DNA of 55,859 nt from Candidatus Methylomirabilota bacterium (GCA_028870115.1 JAGWQH010000104.1:1-55859); one strand, 5' to 3'. Shown: positions 37,782 to 55,397, counted from the first letter of the stretch. Numbers and translations: made by a program. Notes: generated from the sequence alone by a model not told the origin.

Positions 37782-40700
37782 ATGCACCATTCTGATTTTG
37801 TTCATCTGCACGTCCATAGCCAATACAGCCTGTTGGACGGAGCCTGCGGGTTGGAGAAGCTGGTGGCCAAGGCGAAAGAGTATAAGATGCCCGCCTTGGC
37901 CGTGACCGATCACGGCAACCTCTTCGGGGCGATCGACTTTTACACCCTCGCGATGAAAGAGGGGGTGAAGCCGATTATCGGCTCTGAGGTATACATTGCC
38001 CCCGGCAGCCGCTTCGAGAGGTCTAAACAGGACAGCAGCTACGAGGGCGCGAGCCACATCACCTTGCTGGCCAAGGACCAGGTCGGCTACCGGAATTTGA
38101 TCAAGCTGGTGTCGGCCGGCTACCTGGAAGGGTTCTATTACAAGCCGCGAATCGACCGGGAGCTGTTTGCCCAGCATTGTCAGGGGCTCATTGCCCTCTC
38201 CGGCTGTCTGAACTGCGAAGTGGCTAAGGCATTGTTGGATGGCGATGAGGCACGGGCAAAGGAGACCGTCGGTTGGTACATGGAGGCGCTGGGGCGCGAG
38301 AACTACTTTTTGGAGGTTCAGGATCACGGGATGGCGGAGCAAAAGACGGTGACTGACGGAGTCCTTCGGCTCGCTAAAGCCTTTGAGTTGCCGATTGTGG
38401 CCACCAACGACCTGCACTATCCCAGCAAGGAAGATGCGCGCGCCCATGAGGTCCTGCTCTGCATCCAGACGGGAAAAACGATTCAGGATAAGGATCGTTG
38501 GCGCTTTTCCACCGACCAGTTCTATTTCAAATCGGCAGCGGAGATGAAGCGGATCTTTGCCGAGCTGCCGGAAGCGGTCAAGAATACCATTACCGTGGCT
38601 GAGAGGTGCAACCTTCAGCTCCAGTTCGGACAGCTTCGCCTGCCAAAGTATCAGGTGCCCGAGGGGTACACCCTGGAGTCCTACCTGGCCCATCTGTCCT
38701 GGCAGGGATTGAAGGCCCGATACCCGGACGTAAATGCCGAGGTTGAGGCGCGCTTGAGGTATGAGCTGGAGGTCATCCAGAAGACCGGCTTCGCCGGCTA
38801 CTTTCTGGTGGTCTGGGACTTCATTAAGTTCGCCAAGGATCGGGGGATCTCGGTCGGCCCCGGCCGCGGGTCTGCGGCCGCCTCGCTGATTGCCTACTGC
38901 CTCGGCATCACCAACATCGATCCGCTCCGGTACGGCCTGATCTTTGAACGGTTCCTGAACCCCGAACGGATCAGCATGCCGGATATGGATATCGATTTCA
39001 GCGACGACCGGCGGGACGAGGTGATCGACTATGTGACGAGGAAGTATGGAGCCGATAATGTCGCTCAGATTATCACGTTCGGAACAATGGGGGCCAAGGC
39101 GGTCATCCGTGACGTCGGGCGGGGCCTGGGAATGCCCTATGCCGAGGTGGACAAGATCGCCAAGTTGGTTCCCAATCGGATCAATATCAGCCTGGATGAG
39201 GCGATCGCCGAGAGCCCGCCGCTGACCGAGGCGGTGCAGAACCGGACAGAGGTCGGGGAACTATGGCGGGTTGCCAAGTGTCTGGAGGGGCTGACACGGC
39301 ACGCCTCAACCCACGCCGCCGGCGTCGTGATTTCCGGCGACCCGCTCACCGAGCATGTTCCGCTGTATAAAGATCCAAAGGCCGGCAGCAAGCCGACAAC
39401 CCAGTACGCCATGAAAGCCATCGAGAAGATCGGTCTGCTAAAGGTTGATTTCCTGGGCCTGCGGACCCTGACGGTCATCGCTAATACCCTGGAGCTGATC
39501 GCGTCGGGACGCGGCTGTAAGATCCAGATTGAGGAGATCCCTCTCGACGACCCGGCGGTTTTCCAACTGCTCGGCGAGGCGCGGACCTTCGGAGTGTTCC
39601 AACTGGAATCCTCAGGGATGCGGGATCTGATGCGGCGTCTGAAGCCGGAACGGTTGGAGGACGTCATCGCCCTCGTGGCGCTCTATCGACCGGGACCGAT
39701 GGTGATGATTGACGACTTCATCAACCGCAAGCACGGCAAGGTCAAGATCCGCTACGATCATCCGTTGATGGAGGCGATCCTCAAAGAGACCTACGGGATC
39801 ATGGTCTACCAGGAACAGGTCATGCGGATCGCCTCGGATCTCGCCGGATTCTCGATGGGTGAAGCGGATGTACTGCGTAAGGCGATGGGTAAGAAAGACC
39901 CTGAGATGATGGATCAACAGCGAAAGAAGTTTGTCGACGGGGCGAAGGCCAAAGGGGTCCAGGCGCGGACGGCGGAAAAGATCTTCGACAAGATGGCCCC
40001 CTTTGCGGGATATGCCTTCAACAAACCCCATGCGACCTCTTACGCCCTCTTGGCCTATCAGACCGCCTACCTGAAAGCCCATTACCCGGTTGAGTTCATG
40101 GCGGCCCTCCTCACCTCAGAGATGGCTGATACCGACGGGATCGTCAAGTATATCGACGAGTGCAAGCAGATGGGGATTACCGTCCTACCGCCAGATGTCA
40201 ACGAGTCGGAAAGCCGCTTTACTGTGGTGGGAGAGCAGATTCGATTCGGGCTGGTGGCCATCAAGAATGTCGGCGAGACGGCCATCCAGTCGATCCTGGC
40301 TACACGGCGGGATAAGGGTCCTTTCCGGTCTCTCTTTGACTTCTGCGAGCGGGTGGACCTGCGTCTGGTGAATAAGCGTGTCATCGAGAGCCTGATCAAG
40401 TGCGGGGCATTTGACTCCCTTGGGGCGGCGAGGGCTCAGCTTATGGCTGTGGCCGATAAGGCGATGGAGGCCGGCGCCGGCGCACAGCGGGAGCGGATCC
40501 AGGGTCAGGTCTCGCTGCTGGACGTCTTGGAGGCGAAGGGTGGGCTCAGCCACCAGGCGGCAGCGCTGCCCGATATCCCGGAGTGGTCGCCCGGTCAACG
40601 CCTGTCCGCCGAAAAGGAGACATTGGGCTTCTACGTCACCGGCCACCCGCTGGCCGATTATCGGGATGTCATCGCAAAGGTTGCGGCCGTTACGACCGAT

Positions 40701-41222
40701 CGCCTCGCGGCCTGCCAGGACAAAGAGACCGTCACGCTGTGCGCCATCGTATCCGCGGTCAAGGAGATTACCACAAAGAGCGGCGAGCGGATGGCCTTCG
40801 TGACGCTCGAGGACATGGCGGGGACGGTGGAGGCGGTGGCATTTCCTGAGCTGTATAAGGCGAACCTGCTCCATCTGGTGAAGGGTGCGGCCATTATGGC
40901 AAAGGGACAGGTGGATGTCGGCGAAGAGGTGGTCAAGTTGCTCTTGACGGAAGTCAGCTCCCTCTCGACCGCCAGGCGCAACGGAGGGTCGGTGGTGGAG
41001 ATTACGGTAGACGAGGCGCACCTGTCCGACCCACAACTTGAGCAGTTAAAAGGCTTGCTGCTGAGATTCCCGGGACCCGTTCCTGTCAGGCTCCACCTGA
41101 CCGTTACTCCAGGCGCCCAGGTCACCATTGCCGCCTCGCCGGATATGACCGTGGCAGCGGACGAGTCGCTCAGGCAACAGGTGGAGGCCCTGTTGGGTCC
41201 GGGCACGATCACCGGAGCGTGA
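37782..41222 (+). CDS. dnaE: DNA polymerase III alpha subunit
   Basis: 1146 residues, DnaE1 type. The N-terminal PHP domain opens FVHLHVHSQYSLLDGACG, the polymerase palm has MPDMDIDFSDDRRDEV with catalytic aspartates, and the fingers region includes FNKPHATSYALLAYQTAYLK. A helix-hairpin-helix region and the OB fold (TLCAIVSAVKEITTKSGERMAFVTLED) follow. AGGAGA precedes ATG 37782 at ideal spacing. It replicates the chromosome with the beta clamp. Confidence 0.97.
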   Translation: MHHSDFVHLHVHSQYSLLDGACGLEKLVAKAKEYKMPALAVTDHGNLFGAIDFYTLAMKEGVKPIIGSEVYIAPGSRFERSKQDSSYEGASHITLLAKDQVGYRNLIKLVSAGYLEGFYYKPRIDRELFAQHCQGLIALSGCLNCEVAKALLDGDEARAKETVGWYMEALGRENYFLEVQDHGMAEQKTVTDGVLRLAKAFELPIVATNDLHYPSKEDARAHEVLLCIQTGKTIQDKDRWRFSTDQFYFKSAAEMKRIFAELPEAVKNTITVAERCNLQLQFGQLRLPKYQVPEGYTLESYLAHLSWQGLKARYPDVNAEVEARLRYELEVIQKTGFAGYFLVVWDFIKFAKDRGISVGPGRGSAAASLIAYCLGITNIDPLRYGLIFERFLNPERISMPDMDIDFSDDRRDEVIDYVTRKYGADNVAQIITFGTMGAKAVIRDVGRGLGMPYAEVDKIAKLVPNRINISLDEAIAESPPLTEAVQNRTEVGELWRVAKCLEGLTRHASTHAAGVVISGDPLTEHVPLYKDPKAGSKPTTQYAMKAIEKIGLLKVDFLGLRTLTVIANTLELIASGRGCKIQIEEIPLDDPAVFQLLGEARTFGVFQLESSGMRDLMRRLKPERLEDVIALVALYRPGPMVMIDDFINRKHGKVKIRYDHPLMEAILKETYGIMVYQEQVMRIASDLAGFSMGEADVLRKAMGKKDPEMMDQQRKKFVDGAKAKGVQARTAEKIFDKMAPFAGYAFNKPHATSYALLAYQTAYLKAHYPVEFMAALLTSEMADTDGIVKYIDECKQMGITVLPPDVNESESRFTVVGEQIRFGLVAIKNVGETAIQSILATRRDKGPFRSLFDFCERVDLRLVNKRVIESLIKCGAFDSLGAARAQLMAVADKAMEAGAGAQRERIQGQVSLLDVLEAKGGLSHQAAALPDIPEWSPGQRLSAEKETLGFYVTGHPLADYRDVIAKVAAVTTDRLAACQDKETVTLCAIVSAVKEITTKSGERMAFVTLEDMAGTVEAVAFPELYKANLLHLVKGAAIMAKGQVDVGEEVVKLLLTEVSSLSTARRNGGSVVEITVDEAHLSDPQLEQLKGLLLRFPGPVPVRLHLTVTPGAQVTIAASPDMTVAADESLRQQVEALLGPGTITGA

Positions 41223-41304
41223 CCTCGGCATAACCTCCCCCCGGCGAGGATATACCCTCCCGTGGGCATCCATTGCCTCCCAACCATACCTGAAGGGAGA
41301 CGCC

Positions 41305-41841: not shown

Positions 41842-41843
41842 CC

Positions 41844-41879
41844 CCAAACGCCCAGTGCGGTCAGGCGGCTGGCGTTTGG
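41844..41879. terminator. Possible bidirectional terminator between DUF421 and AAA+ genes
   Basis: CCAAACGCC at 41844 pairs with GGCGTTTGG at 41871 (9-bp stem, 18-base loop). It sits between convergent genes and overlaps the last codons of the AAA+ gene. No clear T-tract. Confidence 0.4.
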
Positions 41880-43216: not shown

Positions 43217-43255
43217 TGTGGTGCTCCTTTCAATCGTCGGGTGAGTAGATAGTCG

Positions 43256-44709
43256 TCAGAGGTTCCTTGTGCTCGTGAACACCTCACGGTGCCGACACTC
43301 GCCGCCCGTCACCTGACGGCAACTGCGAGGCGTTCCATATCGTCGGTTGCATGTGAGCATAAAGGGATGCGGGTACAGCGCCAGGTCGGGCGGGAAACCG
43401 TGGAACTGGCCGCTTAACGTGTCCAAGGCTATCATGACGACCCAGAGTCGGGATCGAAGGGTATCTGGGAAAAGCGGACGCCGTAGCATCTCAGCACATA
43501 TCGGAAGGACCTCTGGCCGACGCCAGTCCCCGCGTCCCAGGACAATCGCGAGACCCTCGAGCTCCCCGGTCTGCCCGGTCCTGGCGATTGTGAGGAGCTG
43601 TGTGAAGGCGGTCTGGTCGCGGCGGGTGGTCCTGATAAGTAACCCCACCATGGGGCGGTACCAGTGAGGCGACTGCGTCAACGTGGTGATGAAGTGATCC
43701 TCCAGGTGGGTGGCGCAGCCAATGACGTCCTCCACGTCGAAAGCGTCTTGCCACTTCATCTGCATGTGCGTGATACCGGCGGGATCGCCGAAAAGGGTAA
43801 GCACCCGCGCCGCACTATGCCGATACGGGCAGCATTTGTGGTCGAGAACCAGGCGGCGCAACGCTGGGATGTACTGACGGGCACCTAAAAAGGTAACGGC
43901 GTCCAGCCCGGCTTCCGTCGCCTCGTCACTGAGCAGGGCAGGCTCGAGGAGGGCTTCCAGGTCTCGGTACCCGTCGCGCCGGCAATCCATCGCGAGGTAC
44001 ACTCGGGTCCGTAGCGAACTCGCTCTCTGCGCGGCCGCCCGCAGGAACTCGCAACCGCGCTGAGACGGGAAGGTGCGGAGCGCAATGACCGCGCGCACCT
44101 TGATGTAGTCGGAGGCCGTATCGGCCAGCTCGCCAAGCACTGGGAGTACCCTGGGGTCGCCGGACTCCTGCAAGGCGTCGATCGCGCAAGATCCGGCCCA
44201 CTCGTCTTCGAGAGCGTCGGGCGTCTCCCGCGTCAAGTCTATGAGGATCGGCAGGGACGCCCGGTCTCCGGCCTTGACGAGCAAGGCCGTCCGGAGAAGC
44301 GCCTCAGGGCTTCCCGGCTCTGCGCCGGCGGTTCGGAGTATGTCGAAGCCTTTCGGATCTCCGCTTCTGGCCAACAGGTATGCCGCCCGAAGTCGAAGCT
44401 CGGGGAGCGGGTCGGCGCACAACGCACGCAAATGCGAGATGATCACTTCCTGGCGCGCAAAGGCAGGATAGGCGTCGAGGACGCCCAGTGCGCGCCGGGC
44501 CGTGTGGAATGGTCCCCACGTGTGATCGTCGAGTGGTAGCGCGCTCGGGGTCTCACGGCGCCTTCAAGAGCTGCGCTGATGACCTTGAGGCACCGACGCT
44601 TGATGCTGCCGCGGTCAAGGCTCGCTGGTGTCGAGCAAGTGAGGGGCTTAGAGAGGGTCAAAACGGTAGTTCCAAGGGTAAGATTCAAGAACCGGCGTCT
44701 GGTCAGCAT
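43256..44709 (-). pseudogene. Tat-exported HEAT-repeat protein, interrupted by a frameshift
   Basis: The minus strand carries two overlapping frames that together look like one gene. From ATG 44709 a twin-arginine signal (LTRRRFLNLTLGTT) is followed by about 40 residues and then sequence that ends at TGA 44443. A second frame, open from a TGA near 44568 to 43256, continues with coding-like sequence ALPLDDHTWGPFHTARRALGVLDAYPAF and then about 390 residues of HEAT-like repeats (LRLRAAYLLARSGDPKG, IKVRAVIALRTFPS...). The second frame has no ATG, GTG or TTG before 44446. A one-base deletion between about 44550 and 44570 would explain this; sequencing error is possible. The AAA+ gene follows. Confidence 0.7.
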
Positions 44710-44914
44710 GTCACGTCCTTTCTCTGTGCGGGATTGCCGAGTTGTCAGTGTCAGGAGTCCCCTCTCCCTCGGGGACCTCCTCCGAGCAGGTCCTTCAGGG
44801 CGGTGCGTGGTCCTGCTCCAGCGGGTGTCCTTGCGCTCCGCTCAGGTACGCTCACGTTAAGCTTATTGTAGTGAAGGTCTGTGCGGTCTAACGCCACGGA
44901 ATGTCGGTGGCCGC
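44710..44914. other. Divergent intergenic region, no gene seen
   Basis: Contains a short hairpin (GTCCCC...GGGGAC, around 44757-44782) and GC-rich imperfect repeats, with an AT-rich stretch near 44865. It must hold the control region of the minus-strand HEAT/AAA pair, but I cannot point to a convincing promoter on that strand. Confidence 0.4.
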
Positions 44915-44944
44915 TTGACTTATTCGATTCCGTAAAGATAGACT
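44915..44944 (+). promoter_or_regulatory. Promoter for WYL regulator, possibly leaderless transcript
   Basis: TTGACT at 44915-44920 and TAGACT at 44939-44944 with an 18-base spacer. Transcription would start at about 44951, one base before the ATG at 44952, and no ribosome site precedes that ATG. Confidence 0.45.
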
Positions 44945-44951
44945 CGCGCTC

Positions 44952-45944
44952 ATGGTAGAGAATGCGCTCTCCCGCCGCGACCGACAGATGGTGCGCATCA
45001 TCTCGCTTGCAAGGTTGCTCATGGGAGGGAGCAGCCAGACCGTCTACCAACTGGCCGCCCGCTTTAAGACCCGCCGCGAGACGATCTACCGTGATCTCCG
45101 AACCCTGAACGAGGCCGGTTTCCCGGTCATGCCTGACGAGTCTGGGCGATTCAGCCGCCCGCGACTAGATCCTACGTTCCGACGGTTTCTCCCGCCGGTT
45201 CCGCTCAATGCCGAGGAAGTCGCCGCGCTGCTCTGGGCAGTGAAGCAGACAGGCGGTCGGCAGCCATTCAGGACCTCCCTCTCAAGCGCCCTTTGCAAAC
45301 TACAGGCCCTCGTTCCGACAAAGGAAGGGCGCCTCGCGATGGCTTTAGACGGGGCGATTGAGGAACGGGATCGCGGCGTGAAGGATTATGTGGGGCTCGA
45401 GGCCGTTATCCTCCACTTGGTGAAGGCAATCGTGGAGCGGAGGCGCTGCCTCGCCACGTATCATGCCCCTTGGCGCGACAAGCCGAGCAGGTTTCCCTAT
45501 GACCCGTACCGGCTTTTCAATTTTCAAGGAAGGCTGTACTGCATTGGCCAGGTATCCGCGTATGGGGGCACGACCACGCTTGCTGTTGAGAGGATTCAGG
45601 CCATTGAGCCGACTGGCGAGATGTTTGCAGTGGACTCTGGGTTCGACTGGAAGCGGTACGAGGCCGAGGCGTTCGGAGTGGTCTGGGAAAAGCCCAGGAA
45701 GGTCGTCGTCCGGTTCAGCGCAGATCAAGCGCCCTACGTCCGCGAGCGGGAGTGGCACCCCACCCAGACGATCCGCACCCTGCGCGATGGCCGCGTGGAA
45801 CTGACATTCCGAGCGGGGGGCGCCTTCGAGATCATCCGCTGGATCCTGAGCTGGGGGAGCGCCGCAACGCTTCTTCAGCCAAAGTCCCTACGCCGGCTGG
45901 TGGCCGAAGAACTCCAGGCCGCAAGCCGCCTCTATCGTCAATAG
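44952..45944 (+). CDS. WYL-domain transcriptional regulator (YafY/CapW-like)
   Basis: 330 residues. N-terminal winged helix (SQTVYQLAARFKTRRETIYRDLRTLNEAGFPV), a WYL domain (RRCLATYHAPW, YDPYRLFNFQGRLYCIGQ), and the C-terminal WCX extension (VELTFRAGGAFEIIRWILSWG). Such regulators control many phage-defence operons by sensing a nucleic-acid-type ligand through the WYL fold. It heads the nuclease/Nmad cassette on the same strand. A degraded paralogous C-terminus lies 434 bases downstream. Confidence 0.88.
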   Translation: MVENALSRRDRQMVRIISLARLLMGGSSQTVYQLAARFKTRRETIYRDLRTLNEAGFPVMPDESGRFSRPRLDPTFRRFLPPVPLNAEEVAALLWAVKQTGGRQPFRTSLSSALCKLQALVPTKEGRLAMALDGAIEERDRGVKDYVGLEAVILHLVKAIVERRRCLATYHAPWRDKPSRFPYDPYRLFNFQGRLYCIGQVSAYGGTTTLAVERIQAIEPTGEMFAVDSGFDWKRYEAEAFGVVWEKPRKVVVRFSADQAPYVREREWHPTQTIRTLRDGRVELTFRAGGAFEIIRWILSWGSAATLLQPKSLRRLVAEELQAASRLYRQ

Positions 45945-46005
45945 TGTGACGTTACCTGCCACAGCTATGGGGTAATGTAGGAAACGATGGAGACCGATTA
46001 ATAAG

Positions 46006-46374
46006 ATGGGAGCTAACCTGTTCGCGTTCGACGAAAAGTACGGAGCGAGGACGATATCCACGTCTATCGCCTCATGCATGGTTGCACTTATTATTCATGC
46101 CGTTGTCCTCGCGCCGGACGGACAGGTGGTGCGGGCCTCCGAAGAATCGCTTGGCCGACTGGTTGAGACTATGTCTGAACACATCAGGGATAATCTCGGG
46201 CGAACGATCGGACGATTCGAGCGGCACCCGGATGGAGAAGTGAGGGTGTACGACGCCTTGGGGAGACCTCTTGGGCACGCAGGTCGCAATGGAACCTTCG
46301 ACCAGCTCGGACGCAGAATCTCCCCAAATAACGTGCCTGCGTTGCTGTTGAAGTGCCCTGATCACCCTCAGTGA
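46006..46374 (+). CDS. Hypothetical protein
   Basis: 122 residues. After a short hydrophobic stretch (SIASCMVALIIHAVVLA) there is GEVRVYDALGRPLG followed by GTFDQLGRRISPNN, a pair of YDxLGR-like segments that look like genuine protein sequence. Family not recognised and no ribosome site visible. It may be a short exported protein or a remnant. The stop at 46374 lies four bases before the remnant WYL sequence. Confidence 0.5.
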   Translation: MGANLFAFDEKYGARTISTSIASCMVALIIHAVVLAPDGQVVRASEESLGRLVETMSEHIRDNLGRTIGRFERHPDGEVRVYDALGRPLGHAGRNGTFDQLGRRISPNNVPALLLKCPDHPQ

Positions 46375-46377
46375 GGG

Positions 46378-46566
46378 GATAGGCGCGACGACCGGGTCGA
46401 GTTCACCTTCCGCGCCGGCGGCTGATTCGAGATTGCGCGGTGGATCCTCGGTTGGGGGGATGCGGCTGAGGTCGTGCTGCCGGCCGCGCTGAGGCGCGAG
46501 GTGAAGCGCATCTTATCTAGCGCAGCATCGATCTATAAGCGCGAGGGGAGGGGATTGCATGGGTAA
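46378..46566 (+). pseudogene. C-terminal remnant of a second WYL regulator, in-frame stop
   Basis: The frame reads DRRDDRVEFTFRAGG, then TGA at 46423, then FEIARWILGWGDAAEVVLPA... to TAA 46564. It parallels the tail of the intact regulator at 44952 (VELTFRAGGAFEIIRWILSWG). Everything N-terminal to this is missing and one internal stop is present. It abuts the nuclease gene, so the nuclease cassette was probably once preceded by its own WYL gene or a duplicated one. Confidence 0.75.
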
Positions 46567-47686
46567 GCCAAACCTTTTCGAGTACGCTACATCTGAGTTG
46601 AGTCAGGACGCATTTTTCTGTTGGCTCCTGGATTGGTTGAACGATCCCAATCAACTTGTGGCGGAAGCAAGCTGGCGCCTGTTCGAGCAGGTATTTGGTT
46701 CGAGGGGCTTGGCCGTACAGCGAGACGGTATCGCCGCGGTGCATATCAGGCGACAGTTCCACGGGGTCGACATCGTTGTTGTCTTCGAGTTGGTGTCACA
46801 ACCGAAGATCTGCCTTGTCATTGAGGACAAGGTCGATGCGCTGCTCACAGGGAACGATCAACTCGTGCGGAACATCGAGAACACGGCCACGCACGCCGAT
46901 GAGTGGCCACCGCTGTGCGGGGTTGAGCGAGATCGAATCATGGGGTTACTCTTGAAAACGGGCTATGACTTCGATTTTCGGTGCCCACCAAGCTATACAA
47001 TGCTGACCCACCTCGACTTCAAGGACTGGGTGGAGGGTCTATTGGCGCGAAGCCTTGAAGTCAGCGACATTCTGACGAACTGGGCCGAATGGTGTTACCG
47101 AGGCTATCGAGAAAGCGAGGAGAAGGTACTAGCGGCGACGGTCCACGTTGGTGACATCGCAAGCGGGAAGTGGGTTGATAACAAGCTCTGGGATAGTCAG
47201 TGGGCGAATCCCATATACCAGTACAACCTGTTCAAGCGACTCTTCCACGTCGAACTCGGTGACATTGTCGAAGTGAAGGAAGACGATGGGTACCGTACTG
47301 TCTACTTCCATCCTTTTTACAACCGCGCTCGTAAGGAGTATCTACTCCAGGGTACGAGCCGGGGGCGTTGGTGGATTCAGTATCATTTCGACGCCCCAGG
47401 AGCCGACGATTTCTTCTATCGCCTCGACTGGCAGGCTGGCATGTGGGGGATCAGCCTGAGGTTCTACAAGAAAGATAAGTCGGCGGACGATCTGCGTCGG
47501 ATGCAGGATGTCGCCGCGACTCTCGAAGCCTTGCTCAAAGCGCGGGGGCTTGTGACAAGTAGGTTCCGCTCCTCAAGTGCGCGCATCGAGACAACATGCC
47601 TCTTGATCGATCCTTACCGGAGCCCAGGCCTGCTGGAGATGGCTGGTGTCCACGCCGACTTCGTCGGGGCGAAATTTGCCGTCTGA
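46559..47686 (+). CDS. PD-(D/E)XK nuclease family protein
   Basis: 375 residues. N-terminal LSQDAFFCWLLDWL is the typical opening helix, and GVDIVVVFELVSQPKICLVIEDKVDALLTGNDQL contains the D then E-x-K of the PD-(D/E)XK core plus a following Gln/Leu helix. The C-terminal 200 residues are not assigned. The core resembles the PDDEXK_4-type defence nucleases. ATG 46559 has GGGGAGGGG upstream and overlaps the remnant WYL frame. The DUF2779 gene follows after 16 bases. Confidence 0.8.
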   Translation: MGKPNLFEYATSELSQDAFFCWLLDWLNDPNQLVAEASWRLFEQVFGSRGLAVQRDGIAAVHIRRQFHGVDIVVVFELVSQPKICLVIEDKVDALLTGNDQLVRNIENTATHADEWPPLCGVERDRIMGLLLKTGYDFDFRCPPSYTMLTHLDFKDWVEGLLARSLEVSDILTNWAEWCYRGYRESEEKVLAATVHVGDIASGKWVDNKLWDSQWANPIYQYNLFKRLFHVELGDIVEVKEDDGYRTVYFHPFYNRARKEYLLQGTSRGRWWIQYHFDAPGADDFFYRLDWQAGMWGISLRFYKKDKSADDLRRMQDVAATLEALLKARGLVTSRFRSSSARIETTCLLIDPYRSPGLLEMAGVHADFVGAKFAV

Positions 47687-47702
47687 GCAGGCCGTAGGAC
47701 AG

Positions 47703-49187
47703 ATGGGGCACAGCCGCCAAGTTGGTCTCTCGAAGTCCCGAGTGATGGCGGGGCTGCAGTGTCATAAGCGCCTCTGGTGGATGGTGCGCGAGCCGACAGC
47801 GCCCGAGCTTCAACCGGATGAGATGGCGCAGGCGGTGATGGATCGAGGGATCCGCGTCGGTCAACTCGCCCGAACCTATGTTCCCGGCGGGCTTGTCATC
47901 GATCTGCCATACAATGCTTATGACGAGCGTATCAGACTGACCCGGCAGGCACTCGAAGACGGCGCGCCGGCGGTCTATGAGGCATCATTCCGCGCAGACG
48001 GCGTCTTCGTTGCGGTGGACATCCTGAAGCGGGACACTCATGGTTTCCGCCTTATTGAGGTGAAGTCAAGCACATCGGTCAAGGACCACTACATTTCCGA
48101 CGTGGCCATCCAGGCGCACGTTCTGCGACAGAACGGGCTCGACCTCGTGGGCAGCGAGGTGATGCATCTCAACCGTGAATGCGCCTATCCGGACCTCTCG
48201 AACCTCTTCGTGCGGTCGGACGTGACGGAGACGGTTGGAGCGGTCGAGGAGAGTGTGCTGAGGTGGGTGGCCGAGCAGATCGAGATGCTCGAAGGGTCGG
48301 TTCCTGACGTGGCCATCGGGCCTCATTGCACAATGCCCCACGACTGCCCATTCATGGCGCGATGCTGGCCGACGCTTCCGCCCCATCACGTGAGCATGCT
48401 CTACGCCATGAAACGCCGGGCCCCGGAGCTCGAAAGGCAGGGCTACCGGACGATTTATGACCTTCCGAAAGAGGTATCGCTCGGACAGGTTGCGGACCGA
48501 CAGCGGCGCGCGGTACAAGAAGGCCGAATTATCGTGGAGGCGACCCTCGCCAGAGCGCTGGACGTCTTCGTGCCCCCGATCGCCTTTCTCGACTTCGAGA
48601 CCGTGGGCCTGGCGATTCCAGTCTGGGAGGGGTGCCACCCCTACGATGCCGTGCCGGTCCAGTTCAGTTGCCACGTCCAGGAGGCCGATGACCGCGTCAC
48701 TCATCACGAGTGGCTCGCTGAAGGGCCTGAAGATCCAAGGCCGACGCTTGCGGAGCGCCTGGTCCAGGGGTGCGAGTCCGCTCGAACGGTCGTTGCCTAC
48801 AACGCCAGCTTCGAGCGTGGGTGCATCGAGCAGATGGCCGACGCTCTGCCGGCCCTCGCAACGCCGCTGCGGAGCATCGTCGCTCGCCTGGTGGACCCGC
48901 TCCCGGTTGTCCGTAACCACGTGTACCACCCGGACTTCGGAGGCAGCTTTAGCCTGAAGAGCGTTCTTCCGGCACTCGTGCCTGAGCTTCATTACAGTAA
49001 CCTCGCAATCGCTGATGGAGGAACAGCGAGTCTTGAGCTGGAGCGGCTACTTTTCAATGGGGACAGGATAGAGCCGAACGCGAAGGGCCGCCTCCGGAGC
49101 AACCTGCTCCGCTATTGCCACCAGGACACCTGGGGCCTGGTCAGACTCCTGGAACGTCTTCGGCAGCTCAGTGTCAGAATGGGATGA
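47703..49187 (+). CDS. DUF2779 protein: Cas4-like PD-(D/E)XK plus DEDD exonuclease
   Basis: About 494 residues. The N-terminal half has LQCHKRLWW (first cysteine), AVDILKRDTHGFRLIEVKSST (catalytic D and E-x-K) and CTMPHDCPFMARCW, together the Cas4/AddB-like four-cysteine iron-sulfur nuclease layout. The C-terminal half has FLDFETVGLAIP, AYNASFERG and YCHQDTWG, an RNase H-like DEDD exonuclease. I recognise the combined DUF2779 architecture. ATG 47703 follows AGGA; a longer frame begins at 47646 and would overlap the nuclease gene. The Cas4-like half suggests DNA end processing. Confidence 0.85.
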   Translation: MGHSRQVGLSKSRVMAGLQCHKRLWWMVREPTAPELQPDEMAQAVMDRGIRVGQLARTYVPGGLVIDLPYNAYDERIRLTRQALEDGAPAVYEASFRADGVFVAVDILKRDTHGFRLIEVKSSTSVKDHYISDVAIQAHVLRQNGLDLVGSEVMHLNRECAYPDLSNLFVRSDVTETVGAVEESVLRWVAEQIEMLEGSVPDVAIGPHCTMPHDCPFMARCWPTLPPHHVSMLYAMKRRAPELERQGYRTIYDLPKEVSLGQVADRQRRAVQEGRIIVEATLARALDVFVPPIAFLDFETVGLAIPVWEGCHPYDAVPVQFSCHVQEADDRVTHHEWLAEGPEDPRPTLAERLVQGCESARTVVAYNASFERGCIEQMADALPALATPLRSIVARLVDPLPVVRNHVYHPDFGGSFSLKSVLPALVPELHYSNLAIADGGTASLELERLLFNGDRIEPNAKGRLRSNLLRYCHQDTWGLVRLLERLRQLSVRMG

Positions 49188-49251
49188 TCATAGAGGCTTT
49201 GGCAGAAGCTTGTCGAGCACGCCTCGCGTAGCTTGACGCATGGAGGGCGCT

Positions 49252-49908
49252 ATGAGGCTATTCTCCTACAAACTGACTGACGATACCGGTTTCGCACCAA
49301 ATCCATTTTTTGGAGTGTTGACACTCGCTACGTGTAAGCCAGGCATCCGGAAGGCAAAGAGGTGTGGGGATTGGATAGCAGGATTCACCTCACAGAGCTT
49401 GAACGGTGATGGGGTGGGTAACGAAAGACTAATCTTTCTGATGCAGATCACGGACATAATCGAACAGTACGAGTACTTTGGTCTCCACGATTTTCAGGCC
49501 AAGATTCCCGATCTTGTAAGGCCCGAGTGTCGCTATCGGGCCGGGGATAACATCTACCGTCCGTTGACAAACCATCCTCAGGGCCCCGACGATTTTGAGC
49601 AGGTCAGGAATCCCAACCACTGGAATCCCACCGATGATTGTGAGGATAGAGACCATAAGATCAAGGATCTGTCGGGTCGGCGGGTACTTGTCTCCTCGAA
49701 TTTTTATTATTTCGGTGGGAAGCCGCGTGAGGTGCCGCTGGAGGCACGCCCCACCATTCCGAGTGGCCAGGCGCGGTATGGGTTTATGACCCACGATGAG
49801 GCACGCGCAAGGGCCTTTGTTGAGTGGGTCCATGGCCGCTTCCGAAGCGGAGTGGCTGCCGCGCCGCATAAGTGGCCTCCGAACGACCCGAGTTGGGAAA
49901 ACGGATGA
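49252..49908 (+). CDS. Nucleotide-modification-associated domain 2-like protein (Nmad2)
   Basis: 218 residues. DDTGFAPNPFFGVLTLATCKPGIRKAKRCGDWIAGF is, in my recollection, the signature opening of the Nmad2 family, proposed from genome context to act in base modification. The middle has NHWNPTDDCEDRDHKIKDL. ATG 49252 has GGAGG five bases upstream; ATG 49240 is also possible. A 29-codon open frame overlaps its stop (ATGA). Biochemistry unknown. Confidence 0.72.
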   Translation: MRLFSYKLTDDTGFAPNPFFGVLTLATCKPGIRKAKRCGDWIAGFTSQSLNGDGVGNERLIFLMQITDIIEQYEYFGLHDFQAKIPDLVRPECRYRAGDNIYRPLTNHPQGPDDFEQVRNPNHWNPTDDCEDRDHKIKDLSGRRVLVSSNFYYFGGKPREVPLEARPTIPSGQARYGFMTHDEARARAFVEWVHGRFRSGVAAAPHKWPPNDPSWENG

Positions 49909-49994
49909 AGATTGTTCTGGGCCGGAAAGGATATCCGAAAGGGCTTGTGGTTGACAACGACTTCGTCGGCACCCTAACCGCGACGGAGCTGTAG
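49905..49994 (+). CDS. Small ORF, Nmad3-like N-terminus, possible remnant
   Basis: 29 codons (MKIVLGRKGYPKGLVVDN...) beginning inside the Nmad2 stop with ATGA and ending 7 bases before the Nmad3-like gene. The first nine residues recall the beginning of Nmad3-like proteins (MKIVLSRKG in relatives as I remember them). It is too short to assign; it may be the remains of a duplicated gene or a true small peptide. Confidence 0.35.
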   Translation: MKIVLGRKGYPKGLVVDNDFVGTLTATEL

Positions 49995-50001
49995 AGTACT
50001 C

Positions 50002-50814
50002 ATGCGACTATTCGTTGTAAATGTAGGCGTTAACATGGCGGACGCGTCACGGCGAGGTCTACGGAGCCCCATTTTCCCCGACGGGACGTTCGAATTCGTC
50101 CCGATCAAAGAACACCGCAACTTCGTTAACTGCGCACGTATCCCAAGGTATTGTGACCTGCCTACTTACACCAGACGCGCCGACTCGCTAGCCGCGTATG
50201 TCCCGAAGAGCGTTGCCCTCTATCGTGCTCATCTCGATCCCGAGTTCAACACCTTCACCTACGGCGATATCGTCAGTTCTCGATCGGCGAATCTGCGTGA
50301 TGCGACGAAAGGGGATCAACTGTGGTTCCTCGCGAGACTCTGGAATTATGACGAGGCGGGTTGGGCTCAGGGGAGCAACTTCTACTTCATTGGGCTATTC
50401 GAAGTCGAGAGCAACATCTTCGTGGAGGAAGAAACCGAGCCAGAGAGCTTCTCCGCCGACGTCCGGCAGCGCATTCAGGCCAACGCCCATTACAAACGAT
50501 GGGCGGGCGCAGGGGATCGGAGTGCCTTTCGCGTGATTACCGGCCGCCGACCGGGCTCGTTCCGGTTCGACCGTGGGCTGCAGGTAACGCCGGAAGTCGC
50601 GGCTCATCTCTTCGGCGGACGTTATGATCCCCATGAGCGACTGTTTCGGCTAGGCGACGAGATTCTCACGAATCGCAACGGGTGTCCGCGCCGAGTTGAG
50701 ACCTTCGGCAGTGCAACGAGGACCATACAGGCCTTTCTCGATTCTGCGGTCGCAGGGCACCAAGAACATTTGACGTGGCTCAGCCGGTTGGCCGCCACAC
50801 ACGCTGGCTCATAA
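50002..50814 (+). CDS. Nucleotide-modification-associated domain 3-like protein (Nmad3)
   Basis: 270 residues. VGVNMADASRRGLRSPIFPDGTFEFVPIKEHRNF resembles the Nmad3-type N-terminus (VGVN, SPIF-DG-FEFIPI). A middle GDIVSSRSANLRDATKGDQLWFLARL and FNFIGLFEVES-like strand suggest a mixed alpha/beta fold. Function is unknown and the assignment is from memory. No strong ribosome site; GGAG lies 14 bases upstream. It immediately follows Nmad2 in the same orientation. Confidence 0.6.
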   Translation: MRLFVVNVGVNMADASRRGLRSPIFPDGTFEFVPIKEHRNFVNCARIPRYCDLPTYTRRADSLAAYVPKSVALYRAHLDPEFNTFTYGDIVSSRSANLRDATKGDQLWFLARLWNYDEAGWAQGSNFYFIGLFEVESNIFVEEETEPESFSADVRQRIQANAHYKRWAGAGDRSAFRVITGRRPGSFRFDRGLQVTPEVAAHLFGGRYDPHERLFRLGDEILTNRNGCPRRVETFGSATRTIQAFLDSAVAGHQEHLTWLSRLAATHAGS

Positions 50815-50874
50815 ACTGGGGCGATAAGATATCCTGGCGCAAAGAACCGTCCACATCAACTGTCAGGGGAAAAC

Positions 50875-51303
50875 ATGCCAAGGAAGAAATCGCCTGTAGA
50901 TTTCGTGAAGTGGCTTCAGGGACAGCTCGAGGCGTTCCGCGCTCGCCGCTTCGAGGAGTTGGACGTGGAGGCCTTGGGCGACGAGTTGCAAGGCTGGGTG
51001 GCAACATACCGCTATGCGGTCGAGGAACACGCGGAACGGTCATTCCGGATCCTGAAGAGACCGGAGTACGTCTATGGCGATTGGAATGATCTGACGTATG
51101 AATCGAGCATGCTGGATCTCGCCTTCAGGCACAGTCCAAGCCTCGTCAAGACCGCCGCGGCTCAAATAAAGAGCGCTTACCGGCTCGCCCGGGGTAGGGC
51201 GGAACTGCACGGAGAAGGCAGGTGGCCGGCAAAATGCCCGTGGCCGACGCTCGCGGCGCTGCGCCGCGCTCCGTGGAAGTCGAAGGGTAACGATGGGCGT
51301 TGA
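50875..51303 (+). CDS. DUF29-like protein
   Basis: 142 residues: DFVKWLQGQLEAFRARRFEELDVEALGDELQGW resembles the start of DUF29 proteins, followed by a helical C-terminal region. The function of DUF29 is unknown; the family is common in gene-rich accessory regions. AGGGGA lies about five bases before ATG 50875. It is the last gene in the + strand run before the toxin-antitoxin island. Confidence 0.7.
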   Translation: MPRKKSPVDFVKWLQGQLEAFRARRFEELDVEALGDELQGWVATYRYAVEEHAERSFRILKRPEYVYGDWNDLTYESSMLDLAFRHSPSLVKTAAAQIKSAYRLARGRAELHGEGRWPAKCPWPTLAALRRAPWKSKGNDGR

Positions 51304-51395
51304 TCGGGCGGCATTTGGATAACCGCTGATTTCAAAGTAGGATTTGCTCCTGAGATTTCCTGAACGTTAGCAACGGCGCGTGTGTTCTATCCGCA

Positions 51396-51432
51396 TTAGT
51401 GGCCGGAGACAGTCGTGCGGTAAATCACAAGT
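51396..51432. repeat. Accessory-island repeat, copy A (IRRTTV-type)
   Basis: On the minus strand it reads LVIYRTTVSGH then stop (TAA at 51396-51398), the divergent first copy of a sequence repeated at 52222, 53054, 53906 and 55460. It lies in the gap before the first VapB gene. Confidence 0.5.
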
Positions 51433-51436
51433 CCGT

Positions 51437-51465
51437 TTGACCACCCTTAGCTGTTAGGATATAGT
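51437..51465 (+). promoter_or_regulatory. Sigma-70-type promoter for the first VapBC-type module
   Basis: TTGACC at 51437-51442 and TATAGT at 51460-51465 with a 17-base spacer. The block CCGTTTGACCACCCTT-GCTG recurs at 54034. The antitoxin AGGAGG site and ATG follow within 40 bases. Confidence 0.65.
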
Positions 51466-51503
51466 ATGATCGAGTCATATCACTGATGTAGGAGGTTGGA
51501 GTG

Positions 51504-51791
51504 ATGGTGAGAACGACGATTACGCTTGCTGAAGAAGAATTCGCGGAACTCAAGCGTCTTGCCGCTCAACAGGATCGCAGCGTCTCATGGCTGCTCCGGC
51601 AAGCCTTCCGGCTCTCCAAGGCCAGGCTTGAGCGGGGGGAGCCATACGCGACAGAGTTTGACCGGATTTGGCGGGAAGTCGGTCGCTCCCTCAAACAGGT
51701 GGGTGTGCGAACTCCACGAGATGTCGACCACCTGGTAAGAGCGGTTCGTGCAGGGAAAGGCCAGGGCACTGAAAAGGCCAGCGCCCGGTGA
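51504..51791 (+). CDS. Ribbon-helix-helix antitoxin
   Basis: 95 residues. MVRTTITLAEEEFAELKRLAAQQDRSVSWLLRQAF is an RHH/CopG DNA-binding motif, followed by an acidic-basic tail with no known fold. ATG 51504 has AGGAGG eight bases upstream. Its stop overlaps the PIN toxin start (GTGA). Confidence 0.82.
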   Translation: MVRTTITLAEEEFAELKRLAAQQDRSVSWLLRQAFRLSKARLERGEPYATEFDRIWREVGRSLKQVGVRTPRDVDHLVRAVRAGKGQGTEKASAR

Positions 51792-52198
51792 GCAAGTTGG
51801 TGGTGGACACCAACGTCATCCTCTCCAGCTTCATCAGTGCCGGCCCTCCAAGACTGATTGTTAACAGGATTCGTGATCGCCTGGACCTGCTCTGTGTCTC
51901 GCCGCCAATCTTGGACGAGTACCTTGTCGTTTTGCAGCGGGCAGGCCTATCGGCGGACCTGCTTGCCTCACTGTTCTCGCTCTTTCAGGATCCCGATCGC
52001 ATCCTTCTGGCTTTCCCCTCCAGACGTCTTCACGTGATCCGCGATGATCCCAGCGACAACATGTTCATCGAGTGTGCGGTTGAAACCAGCGCAGATTATC
52101 TCATCTCTGGCGATCAGCATCTAAAAAGACTCAAGAGCTTTCAGGGTATCCAGATCGTCAGTCCTCGTGAGTACTTGTCCAGGTTGAGAGAGGAGTAG
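51788..52198 (+). CDS. PIN-domain toxin (COG1569-like)
   Basis: 136 residues. PIN signature acids: LVVDTNVILSSF (first Asp), ILDEYL, and the late DDPSDNMFIECAVETSADYLISGDQHL. Likely a ribonuclease inhibited by the RHH partner. It begins at GTG overlapping the antitoxin stop. Confidence 0.83.
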   Translation: MSKLVVDTNVILSSFISAGPPRLIVNRIRDRLDLLCVSPPILDEYLVVLQRAGLSADLLASLFSLFQDPDRILLAFPSRRLHVIRDDPSDNMFIECAVETSADYLISGDQHLKRLKSFQGIQIVSPREYLSRLREE

Positions 52199-52221
52199 CC
52201 GGGCGGCTTTACCTTCGGATA

Positions 52222-52262
52222 AATGCCCGGCGACGGTCATGCGGCGGATCTTGAAGGTGGGG
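52222..52262. repeat. Accessory-island repeat, copy B
   Basis: Copy with GCCCGGCGACGGTCATGCGG then CGGATCTTGAAGGTGG. In the minus frame it reads PTFKIRRMTVAGH. It lies between the first PIN gene and the second VapB. Confidence 0.7.
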
Positions 52263-52365
52263 ATGCCGACGTCCCGCTGAAAGATGAGGGCCTAACCAAC
52301 AATACCGAAGACACTTGACATAGCATAAAAGTCGGTCTAGTTTTCTGCATGCAGGAGGGTTCGCG

Positions 52366-52569
52366 ATGAGAACAACTCTAGAGATTGACGAGAAGCTCCT
52401 CAAGCAGGCGCAGGTTCTTACCAAGGCCAAGACAAAGAAGGAGGTTGTCCACCGCTCCCTGGAGGCCCTTATCCGCCAGCAGCGGATCGAGCGTCTCCTT
52501 GGAAAACTGGGCCACTTTCCACTGAACTTAACTCCGAGAAAACTCGCCAAGCTGCGTGCCGATGGCTGA
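52366..52569 (+). CDS. VapB-type antitoxin (DUF2191-like)
   Basis: 67 residues. MRTTLEIDEKLLKQAQVLTKAKTKKEVVHRSLEALIRQQ is the DUF2191/VapB RHH-type N-terminus. It overlaps vapC by eight bases. Confidence 0.85.
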   Translation: MRTTLEIDEKLLKQAQVLTKAKTKKEVVHRSLEALIRQQRIERLLGKLGHFPLNLTPRKLAKLRADG

Positions 52570-52990
52570 TGGATGGGTCCTGATCGACACCTCAGCCTGG
52601 ATCCATGCCCTGCGGCCTACCGGGAATCCCGTTGTCCGGCAACAAGTTTACGGTTTGCTCACTGAGGGGCGGACAGTCACGTGTGAAATGATCATCCTGG
52701 AACTTACCAGCGGCACACGGACAGAAGGGGAGTTTCGGGAGATCTGCGAAGACTTAGAGGCGCTACAACAATTCCCGATTACCAAGTCAGTCTGGAGATC
52801 GGCCTACGGGATTGCCCACGCGGTGCGACGTAAAGGTTTATCAATTCCCACGACGGATCTTCTCATCGCTGCTGTTGTCTTGAGCTACCCGTGCCGCCTT
52901 CTTCATTGCGATAAGCACTTCGACCTGATGGCCCACCATATTGCGCTTCCGATCTGGAAACCATCGGCGGCCAAGAGTGATAATGGTTGA
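52562..52990 (+). CDS. VapC-type PIN toxin
   Basis: 142 residues. LIDTSAWIHALR (first Asp), ELTSGTRTEGEFREICEDLEAL, and TTDLLIAAVVLSYPCRLLHCDKHFDLM, with the PIN acidic residues. The partner is the VapB immediately upstream. ATG 52562 chosen; GTG 52556 is alternative. VapC toxins typically cleave tRNA or rRNA; target unknown. Confidence 0.86.
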   Translation: MADGWVLIDTSAWIHALRPTGNPVVRQQVYGLLTEGRTVTCEMIILELTSGTRTEGEFREICEDLEALQQFPITKSVWRSAYGIAHAVRRKGLSIPTTDLLIAAVVLSYPCRLLHCDKHFDLMAHHIALPIWKPSAAKSDNG

Positions 52991-52999
52991 CACGTCCTT

Positions 53000-53033
53000 G
53001 AGATTGCTTCGGGGCGGTGCCCCTCGCAATGAC
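53000..53033. repeat. Dispersed ATTGCGAG palindromic repeat, copy 3
   Basis: GAGATTGCTTCGG and CCTCGCAATGAC. It lies just after vapC and is followed by repeat copy C. Confidence 0.65.
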
Positions 53034-53053
53034 TCCCCAGGTAACGCGCATGG

Positions 53054-53097
53054 CTAGTGCCCAGCGACGGTCATGCGGCGGATCTTGAAGGTAGGGA
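53054..53097. repeat. Accessory-island repeat, copy C
   Basis: AGTGCCCAGCGACGGTCATG then CGGCGGATCTTGAAGGTAGG. The minus frame is VVVPTFKIRRMTVAGH then TAG. The nearest copy in sequence is B. The remaining 53098-53230 holds nothing I can assign. Confidence 0.75.
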
Positions 53098-53230
53098 CGA
53101 CGACGCGGCTAGAGACAGAGTGATCGGGAGGCGGCTGATCGAGAACGATATGAGATGACAACGAGCGAATCCCGGCGAGGGATGGATCTGTCGAAGTCTG
53201 GAGGTCCAAAGGCTATGGGGACTGGCCGAC

Positions 53231-53782
53231 CTACTCGAAAATCTTGGAGAGTGGGAGCCTCAGGTCTGGCAAGAGGGGCGTGGTGAGGGTGTCGTCTGCC
53301 TCGCGGCTCAGTTCGGCGACCCGTTGGTAGCCCTGACCGGTGATGCGGTAGACCTTGATGGTCTCAAGCTCCGGGTCGATGATCCAGTATTCCTGCACGC
53401 CGAAGCGCTCATAGAGCTTTCGCTTGATGATCTCGTCAGTCCTGCGGGTGGTGTCGGAGAGGATTTCCACGATGAGGTCGGGAGCACCTTGGACATTCCG
53501 GGCGGTGAGAATGGACGTCTTGGCCGCCGACACGAAGAGGAGGTCAGGCTGGACGACGTCGGTCTGGGAGAGCACGACGTCGAATGGGGCAGCGTAGGCT
53601 CTTCCGATAGGCCGGGTGGTGAGATACTGCCACAGCGTCCCCGAGAGATTCATGGCGATGCGCTGATGGCCCTCGGACGGCGATGGGGTCATATAGTGTT
53701 CTCCATCGATGAGTTCATGACGTTTGCCGTCATCGGGGAACAGCAGGTAATCGTTATAGGTGAACTTCACTTGGACGGTCAT
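53231..53782 (-). CDS. Uma2 family (DUF820) restriction-endonuclease-like protein
   Basis: 183 residues. The PD-(D/E)XK-like Uma2 signatures: RHELIDGEHYMTPSPSEGHQRI, PDLLFVSA, PDLIVEILSDTTRRTDEIIKRKLYERFGVQEYWIIDPE. The start is taken at ATG 53782 because GAGGAGG lies seven bases upstream; ATG 53836 would add 18 residues. Uma2 proteins are abundant in accessory genomes; function uncertain. Confidence 0.85.
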   Translation of the reverse strand: MTVQVKFTYNDYLLFPDDGKRHELIDGEHYMTPSPSEGHQRIAMNLSGTLWQYLTTRPIGRAYAAPFDVVLSQTDVVQPDLLFVSAAKTSILTARNVQGAPDLIVEILSDTTRRTDEIIKRKLYERFGVQEYWIIDPELETIKVYRITGQGYQRVAELSREADDTLTTPLLPDLRLPLSKIFE

Positions 53783-53905
53783 GGCCTCATCCTCCTCATG
53801 CACCATGAGCCTATCAGGAACCGGCAGCAGCGTCAAGCGCGCTAGTCCCAGCTCGCACGGGTACCAACCATGCGCTCGACTGGCGTCTGAGTCTATGCGA
53901 TGGTT

Positions 53906-53950
53906 TCAATGCCGGTCGACGGTCAGACGGCGGATCTTGAGGTTGCCTGC
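53906..53950. repeat. Accessory-island repeat, copy D
   Basis: GGTCGACGGTCAGACGGCGG then ATCTTGAGGTTGCC. The minus frame is AGNLKIRRLTVDRH then TGA. More diverged than copies B and C. Confidence 0.65.
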
Positions 53951-54037
53951 TATAGTAGTCCTCTGGATGCGTTCCCCTTGTGCATTCAAGAAGCTTGGCG
54001 GACTGCGTGAGAGCTACCCGACTCGGCACGAGCCCGT

Positions 54038-54066
54038 TTGACCACCCTTCGCTGCAGTGATAGAAG
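54038..54066 (+). promoter_or_regulatory. Promoter-like block shared with the first VapBC-type module
   Basis: TTGACC at 54038-54043, 17-base spacer, TAGAAG at 54061-54066. The block CCGTTTGACCACCCTT-GCTG is the same as at 51433. It precedes the 25-codon frame and the DUF433/DUF5615 genes. Confidence 0.5.
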
Positions 54067-54075
54067 GAAGAAGAG

Positions 54076-54153
54076 ATGGTGGTCAGGCTACAACGTATCG
54101 AAAGCACGTTCGATTTGCACGACCTGATACCCGGAGTTTATTCGCGTTTGTGA
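54076..54153 (+). CDS. Small ORF upstream of DUF433, unassigned
   Basis: 25 codons (MVVRLQRIESTFDLHDLIPG...) with GAAGGAAG upstream, just after the promoter-like block. No family recognised. It could be a leader peptide or the remains of an antitoxin gene. Confidence 0.3.
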   Translation: MVVRLQRIESTFDLHDLIPGVYSRL

Positions 54154-54216
54154 AAACTCCCTAAAGCTGCTACCATCAAAGGCGATCCGAGGCAGAAAGA
54201 GAAGAGGAGACGAGGC

Positions 54217-54468
54217 ATGGCGGAAGCCGAATTGTTGGCGCGGATTCAAGTCAACCCAAAAATCTTCGGCGGGAAGCCCGTCATCCGGGGTATGCGGATT
54301 GCGGTAGAGCACATCCTGGGGATGCTCGCAGCAGGTGAGACGGCGGAGACCATCCTTAAGGAGTACCCATTTCTGGAAGCAGAGGATATTCAGGCTTGTT
54401 TGCTCTTTGCTTACCGGTCTGTGACGGGTGAGCAAATCCATGAGTGGGTACCTGTCGCCAATCGCTGA
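54217..54468 (+). CDS. DUF433 antitoxin
   Basis: 83 residues: RIQVNPKIFGGKPVIRGMRIAVEHILGMLAAGETAETILKEYPFLEAEDIQACLLFA, the DUF433 pattern (helical, DNA-binding-like). AGGAG before ATG 54217. Its stop overlaps the DUF5615 start by one base (TGATG). Confidence 0.9.
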   Translation: MAEAELLARIQVNPKIFGGKPVIRGMRIAVEHILGMLAAGETAETILKEYPFLEAEDIQACLLFAYRSVTGEQIHEWVPVANR

Positions 54469-54815
54469 TGAAGTTCCCGCTCGATGTCTGCGTCTGTTCC
54501 CGCTCGCTGCACCGACTACTGACCGATCTGAAACATGATGTCCGACTGGCATCGGACATTGATCCACGCGCTGACGACCAAACGCTGCTTGATCTCGCCT
54601 TGTTGGAAAGCCGAATCGCCGTGACCGCGGACAAGGACTTCGGGGAGCTCGTCTTTGTCTACGGTAGTCCTCATCAGACAATCGTGCGGTTCGTGGAGAT
54701 GCGGGTTGACGAACAAGTAGCCGCGATGCGAGAACTTCTGGAGCGGTATCAGGCTGAGCTGGAGTCCGGCGCAATGATCGTTGTGACTCGCGATCGCGTC
54801 CGTGTACGCCCCTGA
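54468..54815 (+). CDS. DUF5615 PIN-like protein, altered active site
   Basis: 115 residues: MKFPLDVCVCSRSLHRLLTDLKHDVRLASDI, then DQTLLDLALLESRIAVTADKDFGELVFVYG. In relatives the first strand is followed by LDENL-like acids; here it is LDVCVC, so the first catalytic position (E or N) is changed while D in DKDFG is kept. Partner of DUF433. Toxicity may therefore be reduced. Confidence 0.85.
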   Translation: MKFPLDVCVCSRSLHRLLTDLKHDVRLASDIDPRADDQTLLDLALLESRIAVTADKDFGELVFVYGSPHQTIVRFVEMRVDEQVAAMRELLERYQAELESGAMIVVTRDRVRVRP

Positions 54816-54884
54816 ACGCTACATCACTTCGCATAAAGCTCGGTCCGGTTACCAGAAGATCTTCGAGAGGTCGCGCGCTTGCCC

Positions 54885-55151
54885 TCAGTCATATATCCGT
54901 TCGTCCCGCCTGCGGACTGCTTCAATCCGTACCTCTTTCGCTTTGTCATCTACCGGGTAGAGGACCCGGTAGTCGCCTATTCGGATTCGGTAGATCTCTC
55001 GGTCGATGAGCTTCTTGGTCCCATGCGGATGTGGGTTCTCCCGAAGGCGATGGATCGCTGCCACAATACGCAGATAAGTCTCATCATCCAGCCCGTCCAA
55101 CTCCTTGCGCACGGAGCGGCTGCGGAAACGGACCCTGTAGACCTCAGCTAT
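54885..55151 (-). CDS. RelE/ParE-family toxin, non-ATG start (ATA)
   Basis: 88 residues if it starts at 55151: AEVYRVRFRSRSVRKELDGLDDETYLRIVAAIHRLRENPHPHGTKKL, then YRIRIGDYRVLYPVDDKAKEVRIEAVRRRDERIYD, the RelE pattern. The in-frame codon at the expected start is ATA (55151-55149). The first GTG in frame (55112) would remove the first beta strand. So the toxin either starts with ATA or is start-lost. Overlaps the upstream antitoxin gene by 8 bases. Confidence 0.75.
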   Translation of the reverse strand: MAEVYRVRFRSRSVRKELDGLDDETYLRIVAAIHRLRENPHPHGTKKLIDREIYRIRIGDYRVLYPVDDKAKEVRIEAVRRRDERIYD

Positions 55152-55341: not shown

Positions 55342-55397
55342 GCAAGCAGATCCGGGGCTCGGATTCGGTCAAGGCGGTGGAGTGTAAGTAGGATACA

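Follow-up and report, generated by a model that had tools for sequence, protein, structure and literature searches.

An Nmad2-Nmad3 gene pair with predicted base-reader folds in a variable hotspot of a Candidatus Methylomirabilota genome

In this work, a stretch of 55,859 nucleotides from a Candidatus Methylomirabilota bacterium (GCA_028870115.1 JAGWQH010000104.1:1-55859), hereafter the window, was analyzed for six genes that run on its plus strand from 44952 to 50814 (Table 1). They encode a WYL regulator, a 122-amino-acid (aa) protein, a nuclease, a DUF2779 protein, and one protein each of the Nmad2 and Nmad3 families. The original prediction had read this run as a single undescribed defence or modification cassette. 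All six open reading frames were present at the claimed positions, as were the gaps of 16 bases from the nuclease to the DUF2779 gene, 64 bases from there to Nmad2 (counted from the start at 49252; translation might instead begin upstream, at 49240) and 93 bases from Nmad2 to Nmad3. The profile searches agreed with the family names as well, with the WYL, DUF2779, Nmad2, and Nmad3 assignments all passing the Pfam curated cut-offs. The description of the six genes is right, but the inference of a single cassette is not supported. The finding worth following is the Nmad2-Nmad3 pair, which is the only recurring unit of the run.

Table 1. Features of the window in and around the six-gene run
Feature	Coordinates	Strand	Evidence
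Helix-turn-helix (HTH)-WYL-WCX transcriptional regulator	44952..45944	+	Pfam WCX 1.2e-20, WYL 1.4e-11
122-aa protein, family unassigned	46006..46374	+	No Pfam, NCBIfam, or PADLOC assignment (see text)
Probable PD-(D/E)XK-type nuclease, PDC-S26-like, 375 aa	46559..47686	+	PADLOC PDC-S26 9e-4 and plasmid homologues
DUF2779 protein (PF11074), reasonably read as a Cas4-like iron-sulfur (Fe-S) PD-(D/E)XK half and a DEDD-type (RNase H-like) half	47703..49187	+	Pfam 2.6e-37
Nmad2 (PF18753), predicted PUA/EVE-like modified-base reader, core of the conserved pair	49252..49908	+	Pfam 2.3e-47
Nmad3 (PF18754), divergent lineage, partner of Nmad2	50002..50814	+	Pfam 1.3e-15
dnaE homologue, left border of the variable interval	37782..41222	+	
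Further hotspot cargo: DUF29, ribbon-helix-helix (RHH)-PIN toxin-antitoxin, PIN, Uma2, DUF433-DUF5615, ParE-like	50875..55112		Pfam

The paper that named the Nmad families is reportedly Iyer et al. 2013. For the survey, 84,980 species genomes were scanned for Nmad2, and the best 80 of the 504 relatives were taken, together with ten viral contigs and plasmid records. Among the resulting 96 Nmad2 genes, 42 had a neighbouring Nmad3 gene on the same strand, 24 had a TIR gene, and 30 had neither. The two genes of a pair mostly overlapped, by up to 64 bases, and seven pairs were in the order Nmad3-Nmad2. The pair was found in many phyla and in one archaeon, and by comparing the trees, two separate Nmad3 lineages were seen to pair with Nmad2. 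In the window's phylum, Nmad3 was present in 2 of 95 genomes. Phage records gave no match to Nmad2, and a pattern search of IMG/VR gave no confirmed relative of Nmad3, where confirmation used the divergent sequence of the window. A constant third partner of the pair was also considered and rejected, as all-against-all clustering of the flanking genes gave only lineage-specific partners; in Nitrospira, for example, they include an AAA_14/DUF4143 protein and a metallo-beta-lactamase-like protein. The 119 sampled neighbours of the pairs include DNA methyltransferases, TOTE primase, Mads3, and other PADLOC families, which is a qualitative observation without a matched control. In addition, a 430-aa Nmad3 is encoded on a haloarchaeal plasmid (L009, 7001-8293) near a 7-cyano-7-deazaguanine synthase gene and a PfkB kinase gene, and these neighbours are a hint of deazaguanine-type base modification.

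The pair of the window itself is odd in that a canonical Nmad2 stands beside a divergent Nmad3. The Nmad2 profile scored 161.5 bits against a cut-off of 26.1 and covered positions 3-196 of 200. In the tree, this protein is sister to the Nmad2 of an Anaerolineae locus (L014; 57% identity, support 98/87) inside the main clade of paired genes. The Nmad3 profile scored 58.1 bits against a cut-off of 27.0 over profile positions 9-169 of 247, the match covers residues 13-171 only, and the C-terminal motif RGQEF is absent. This Nmad3 groups with those of L008, L009, L055, L091, and L049 (100/100) in a distant lineage with long branches. The two genes are adjacent and on the same strand, but the 93-base gap replaces the usual overlap. 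It would fit these relationships that a canonical Nmad2 was re-paired with another Nmad3, as might be expected if both were functionally needed, although the branches are long.

The two nucleases of the run were assigned with different degrees of support. The product of the nuclease gene matched no Pfam family and gave a weak PADLOC match to PDC-S26 (9e-4). Homologues of its N-terminal half were found on three Burkholderiaceae plasmids at 28-33% identity; one is annotated as PD-(D/E)XK and one matches PDC-S26 at 7e-11. In the alignment of these four sequences, SELSQDAF, D71, and E89-D-K91 are conserved. Its earlier identification as a PD-(D/E)XK nuclease is probably right in view of the plasmid homologues and the D71 and E89-D-K91 residues, but the expected Pfam profile, PDDEXK_4, gave no match. 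The DUF2779 protein scored 128.4 bits against a cut-off of 23.3. Its four Fe-S cysteines (C20/C209/C215/C221) and a D...E-x-K...Q core (D106...E119-V-K121...Q137), the combination taken here to mark a Cas4-like protein, are invariant in six homologues, as are FLDFET and Y471/D475 of the DEDD-type half. Because these residues are invariant, the predicted reading of the protein as Cas4-like plus DEDD exonuclease is borne out as reasonable. Its match to PADLOC Cas4 was weak (2.8e-5), and that to Pfam Cas_Cas4 was not significant (0.31).

Neither nuclease is linked to the pair. The gene set of WYL regulator, nuclease, DUF2779, Nmad2, and Nmad3 was not recurrent in the other genomes surveyed, and the nuclease, DUF2779, and Nmad genes, which had been proposed as conserved neighbours, were not such neighbours in the co-occurrence survey. 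The survey of Nmad2 neighbourhoods and the synteny among congeners led us to reject a fixed five-gene cassette. What stands of the proposal is that Nmad2 and Nmad3 recur as a unit and that a defence or modified-base theme is plausible for the genes of the run; the nuclease and DUF2779 are not tied to the pair. Partial recurrences do exist. In L020, a WYL-WCX regulator, a PDDEXK_4 nuclease (PDC-S26 1.7e-42), a 359-aa protein, Nmad2, and Nmad3 stand in a row, with HipA-like and type I restriction-like proteins, identified by reading, in the vicinity. L055 has WYL-Nmad2-Nmad3, and L021 has the end of a DUF2779 gene (a fragment), a 107-aa gene, Nmad2, and Nmad3. L052 has DUF2779, WYL, two GmrSD/DUF262-type genes (one of which was tested), a PP2C-like gene, and Nmad2. 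A side observation in L020 is a complete second Nmad3 (1054-1905) and an Nmad3 C-terminal fragment (4012-4197), both upstream of the row, which suggests duplication or insertion.

These loci, together with the single strand and the gaps of 16-93 bases between the nuclease and Nmad3, speak for the alternative that the whole run is one defence operon, in which the role of the Nmad proteins would be to recognise a modified base or to produce one, that of the two nucleases to destroy DNA, and that of the WYL regulator to control the system. On the other hand, the window nuclease had no detectable homologue at any Nmad2 locus surveyed, and the L020 nuclease gave no phmmer match to it. Moreover, PDDEXK_4 was present in 16 of the 50 genomes checked and adjoined the Nmad2 locus in one, and DUF2779 was present in 14 of the 50 and lay at the Nmad2 locus in two. 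In congeners, DUF2779 also occupies the corresponding site, where the other genes are lacking. A single operon is therefore quite unlikely in our judgement, and the partial recurrences fit a loose defence-island association with a mild excess of DUF2779 and PDDEXK_4 near Nmad2, since defence genes share islands.

The location of the run was compared in 14 congeners of the window genome, within the phylum sample of 95 genomes. The gene on its left, which we take to be dnaE from reading of the sequence, is conserved in 13 of them, with 76-93% identity in its C-terminal region. The interval between it and pmbA/tldD (41222-55859 in the window) is rich in PIN, Uma2, ParE, DUF433-DUF5615, and DUF29 genes. 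In the congeners, homologues of Uma2, PIN, DUF29-like, and ParE-like genes occur between dnaE and pmbA one at a time or in other combinations. The order is dnaE, PIN, DUF2779, pmbA/tldD in G013; DUF2779 follows dnaE directly in G012; and in G008 dnaE is followed by DUF421, PIN, and a DUF2779 gene that is cut off after its start by the end of the contig. The same interval holds DUF421 and Uma2 in G010, a DUF421 region and PIN in G004, DUF29-like and ParE-like genes in G009, and little else in G005. DUF2779 is present in 5 of 15 species of the genus. In the three species named, where it lies near dnaE (two full copies, 76-81% identical), no nuclease, WYL, or Nmad gene was seen beside it. The window nuclease was absent from the other 94 genomes of the phylum. 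Homologues of nearly all congener cargo genes occur together in the window. Because the cargo between dnaE and pmbA/tldD varies among congeners and is nearly all combined in the window, the interval is a variable hotspot of the genus and the six-gene run is an accumulation in it.

A 48-base repeat occurs four times in this interval (52224-52271, 53058-53105, 53910-53957, and 55464-55511; 63-92% identity to the first copy). Three of the copies sit just after successive cargo genes, and one further copy lies on another contig (C68); the repeats are possibly linked to the mode of cargo accumulation. The 122-aa protein had nothing above the curated cut-offs in Pfam or NCBIfam and no PADLOC match, with only weak likeness to beta-flower/RHS-like profiles. 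No structured RNA scored above the Rfam thresholds in the region, and a promoter and terminator scan gave counts near chance and was not used.

The AlphaFold2 model of Nmad2, built from 56 sequences, had a predicted local distance difference test score (pLDDT) of 96.9. Almost all of its Foldseek matches in the PDB are PUA-like, each of them weak (E at least 0.06), and they comprise THYN1 with 5-methylcytosine (5mC) DNA, McrB-N with m5C DNA, EVE, ASCH, YTH, VcaM4I, Lon-N, and ATP sulfurylase. Lon-N and ATP sulfurylase are counted here as PUA-like in line with SCOP. Against a library of viral models, ASCH, EVE, and DUF3850 recurred. The Nmad3 model had a pLDDT of 68; its top PDB match was EVE, with ASCH, THYN1, and YTH among the first (E at least 0.29). 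In both sequences a G-D-hydrophobic strand precedes a second, hydrophobic strand, an arrangement shared with PUA-like proteins. No structural match had E of 0.001 or less for either protein, and by sequence neither had a meaningful match to solved structures, including the EVE, ASCH, and YTH chains. From the models we infer a PUA/EVE-like fold for Nmad2, which is a supported inference, and more weakly a PUA-like fold for Nmad3, which is a lead. Should Nmad2 prove to be a reader of the PUA/EVE type, there would be a biochemical role to test for a family so far known from genome context alone.

Modified bases are ligands of EVE domains, and those EVE domains that evolve fast are found in the setting of type IV restriction and of toxin-antitoxin modules; there are also descriptions of operons that join EVE to a YafY regulator of the WYL type (PMC7641849). 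The word Nmad is not in the EVE/DCD census. On balance, we favour the reading in which the hotspot brought together independent defence-type genes by chance, with the Nmad2-Nmad3 pair as the functional unit that senses modified nucleobases. The WYL regulator with the PDC-S26-like nuclease, the DUF2779 nuclease, and the pair would have been assembled next to dnaE as separate pieces. Nmad2 would be a PUA/EVE-like domain standing alone, with a modified nucleobase as its ligand, and Nmad3, which carries a conserved H-x-D-P motif, is probably PUA-like too and would bind or process the same nucleotide. We think that the pair is a two-protein sensor, or perhaps a sensor and an enzyme. As to ligand and direction of action, it may detect modified nucleotides that belong to incoming DNA or to a host pathway and prevent them from being used. 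In a bolder form, which we offer as a doubtful possibility, Nmad2-Nmad3 would be a widespread and so far undescribed bacterial and archaeal system of two proteins, both PUA/EVE-like, which together recognise a hypermodified base of a phage and need no further component to stop it; a sister system would employ the same Nmad2 reader with TIR effectors. The conservation of the pair without a fixed nuclease raises the question of whether two base readers are enough to protect a cell.

Several observations weigh against the sensor reading. The pair is not obligatory, as 30 of 96 Nmad2 genes lack both Nmad3 and TIR as neighbours, and in G072/G073 only Nmad3 or only Nmad2 is present. No effector is evident within the pair, none of the Foldseek matches is strong on its own (all at E 0.06 or worse, template modeling (TM) score below 0.5), and a profile comparison of Nmad2 with Nmad3 found no homology. 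DUF2779 near Nmad2 was seen in 2 of 50 genomes against about 0.06 expected by our own estimate, and with WYL-PDDEXK_4 upstream of the L020 pair some functional link to nucleases is possible. Moreover, the Nitrospira pair keeps the same neighbours, which is less like mobile defence. This stable position in several Nitrospira, the Pfam names of both families, and the conserved polar residues of Nmad3 (H77, D79, D105, and H163) would suit enzymes or accessory proteins of a housekeeping pathway for nucleotide modification or salvage. We consider such a role unlikely, given the patchy distribution (Nmad2 in 2 of 195 relatives), the defence genes that neighbour several loci, and a predicted Nmad2 fold that resembles readers and not enzymes. 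An addiction or toxin-antitoxin-like module, with one PUA-like protein toxic and the other its partner, would likewise explain overlapping two-gene units, their invertible order, and the toxin-antitoxin genes around the window pair, and EVE domains do occur in such modules (PMC7641849). However, Nmad2 and Nmad3 each exist alone in other genomes, and this explanation is highly improbable.

Among known systems, the candidate defence nucleases PDC-S26 of PADLOC resemble the window nuclease and its plasmid homologues, but the window protein's own link is weak and is bridged by the homologues. GmrSD type IV restriction (DUF262) adjoins DUF2779-WYL and Nmad2 in L052 and may share the theme of modified-base targeting, whereas the six-gene run has no GmrSD gene. 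The EVE/PUA/ASCH readers (THYN1, the McrB N-terminal domain, and the EVE of VcaM4I) are like the pair in the predicted fold of Nmad2, weakly that of Nmad3, and in their defence contexts; Nmad2 and Nmad3 differ in having no sequence match to solved structures and no nuclease fusion, and in forming a two-gene pair. The TIR (ThsB-like)-Nmad2 cassettes occur at about 24 loci (including L003, L004, L005, L006, L007, and L085), both plasmid-borne and chromosomal, in lineages from Proteobacteria to Bacteroidota. In them ThsB_TIR is followed by Nmad2, MazG_C or a 5-hmdU DNA kinase helical domain, and either UDG or radical SAM; additional TIR genes and phospholipases are often present. Most of their Nmad2 genes cluster together in a largely separate clade. 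Domains like theirs are predicted defence components in DefensePredictor, which also highlights a nucleotide-modification-associated domain, of unspecified Nmad family, as a predicted and not yet validated defence domain (PMC13092281). No TIR was found among the Pfam-scanned neighbours in the window, so it is not such a cassette. The cassettes combine TIR and base-modification enzymes without the Nmad3 pair, and although the window has none of these partners, it shares Nmad2 with them. A reader function of the PUA/EVE type in Nmad2, if real, would also give the ThsB-TIR-Nmad2 cassettes a candidate component for recognition.

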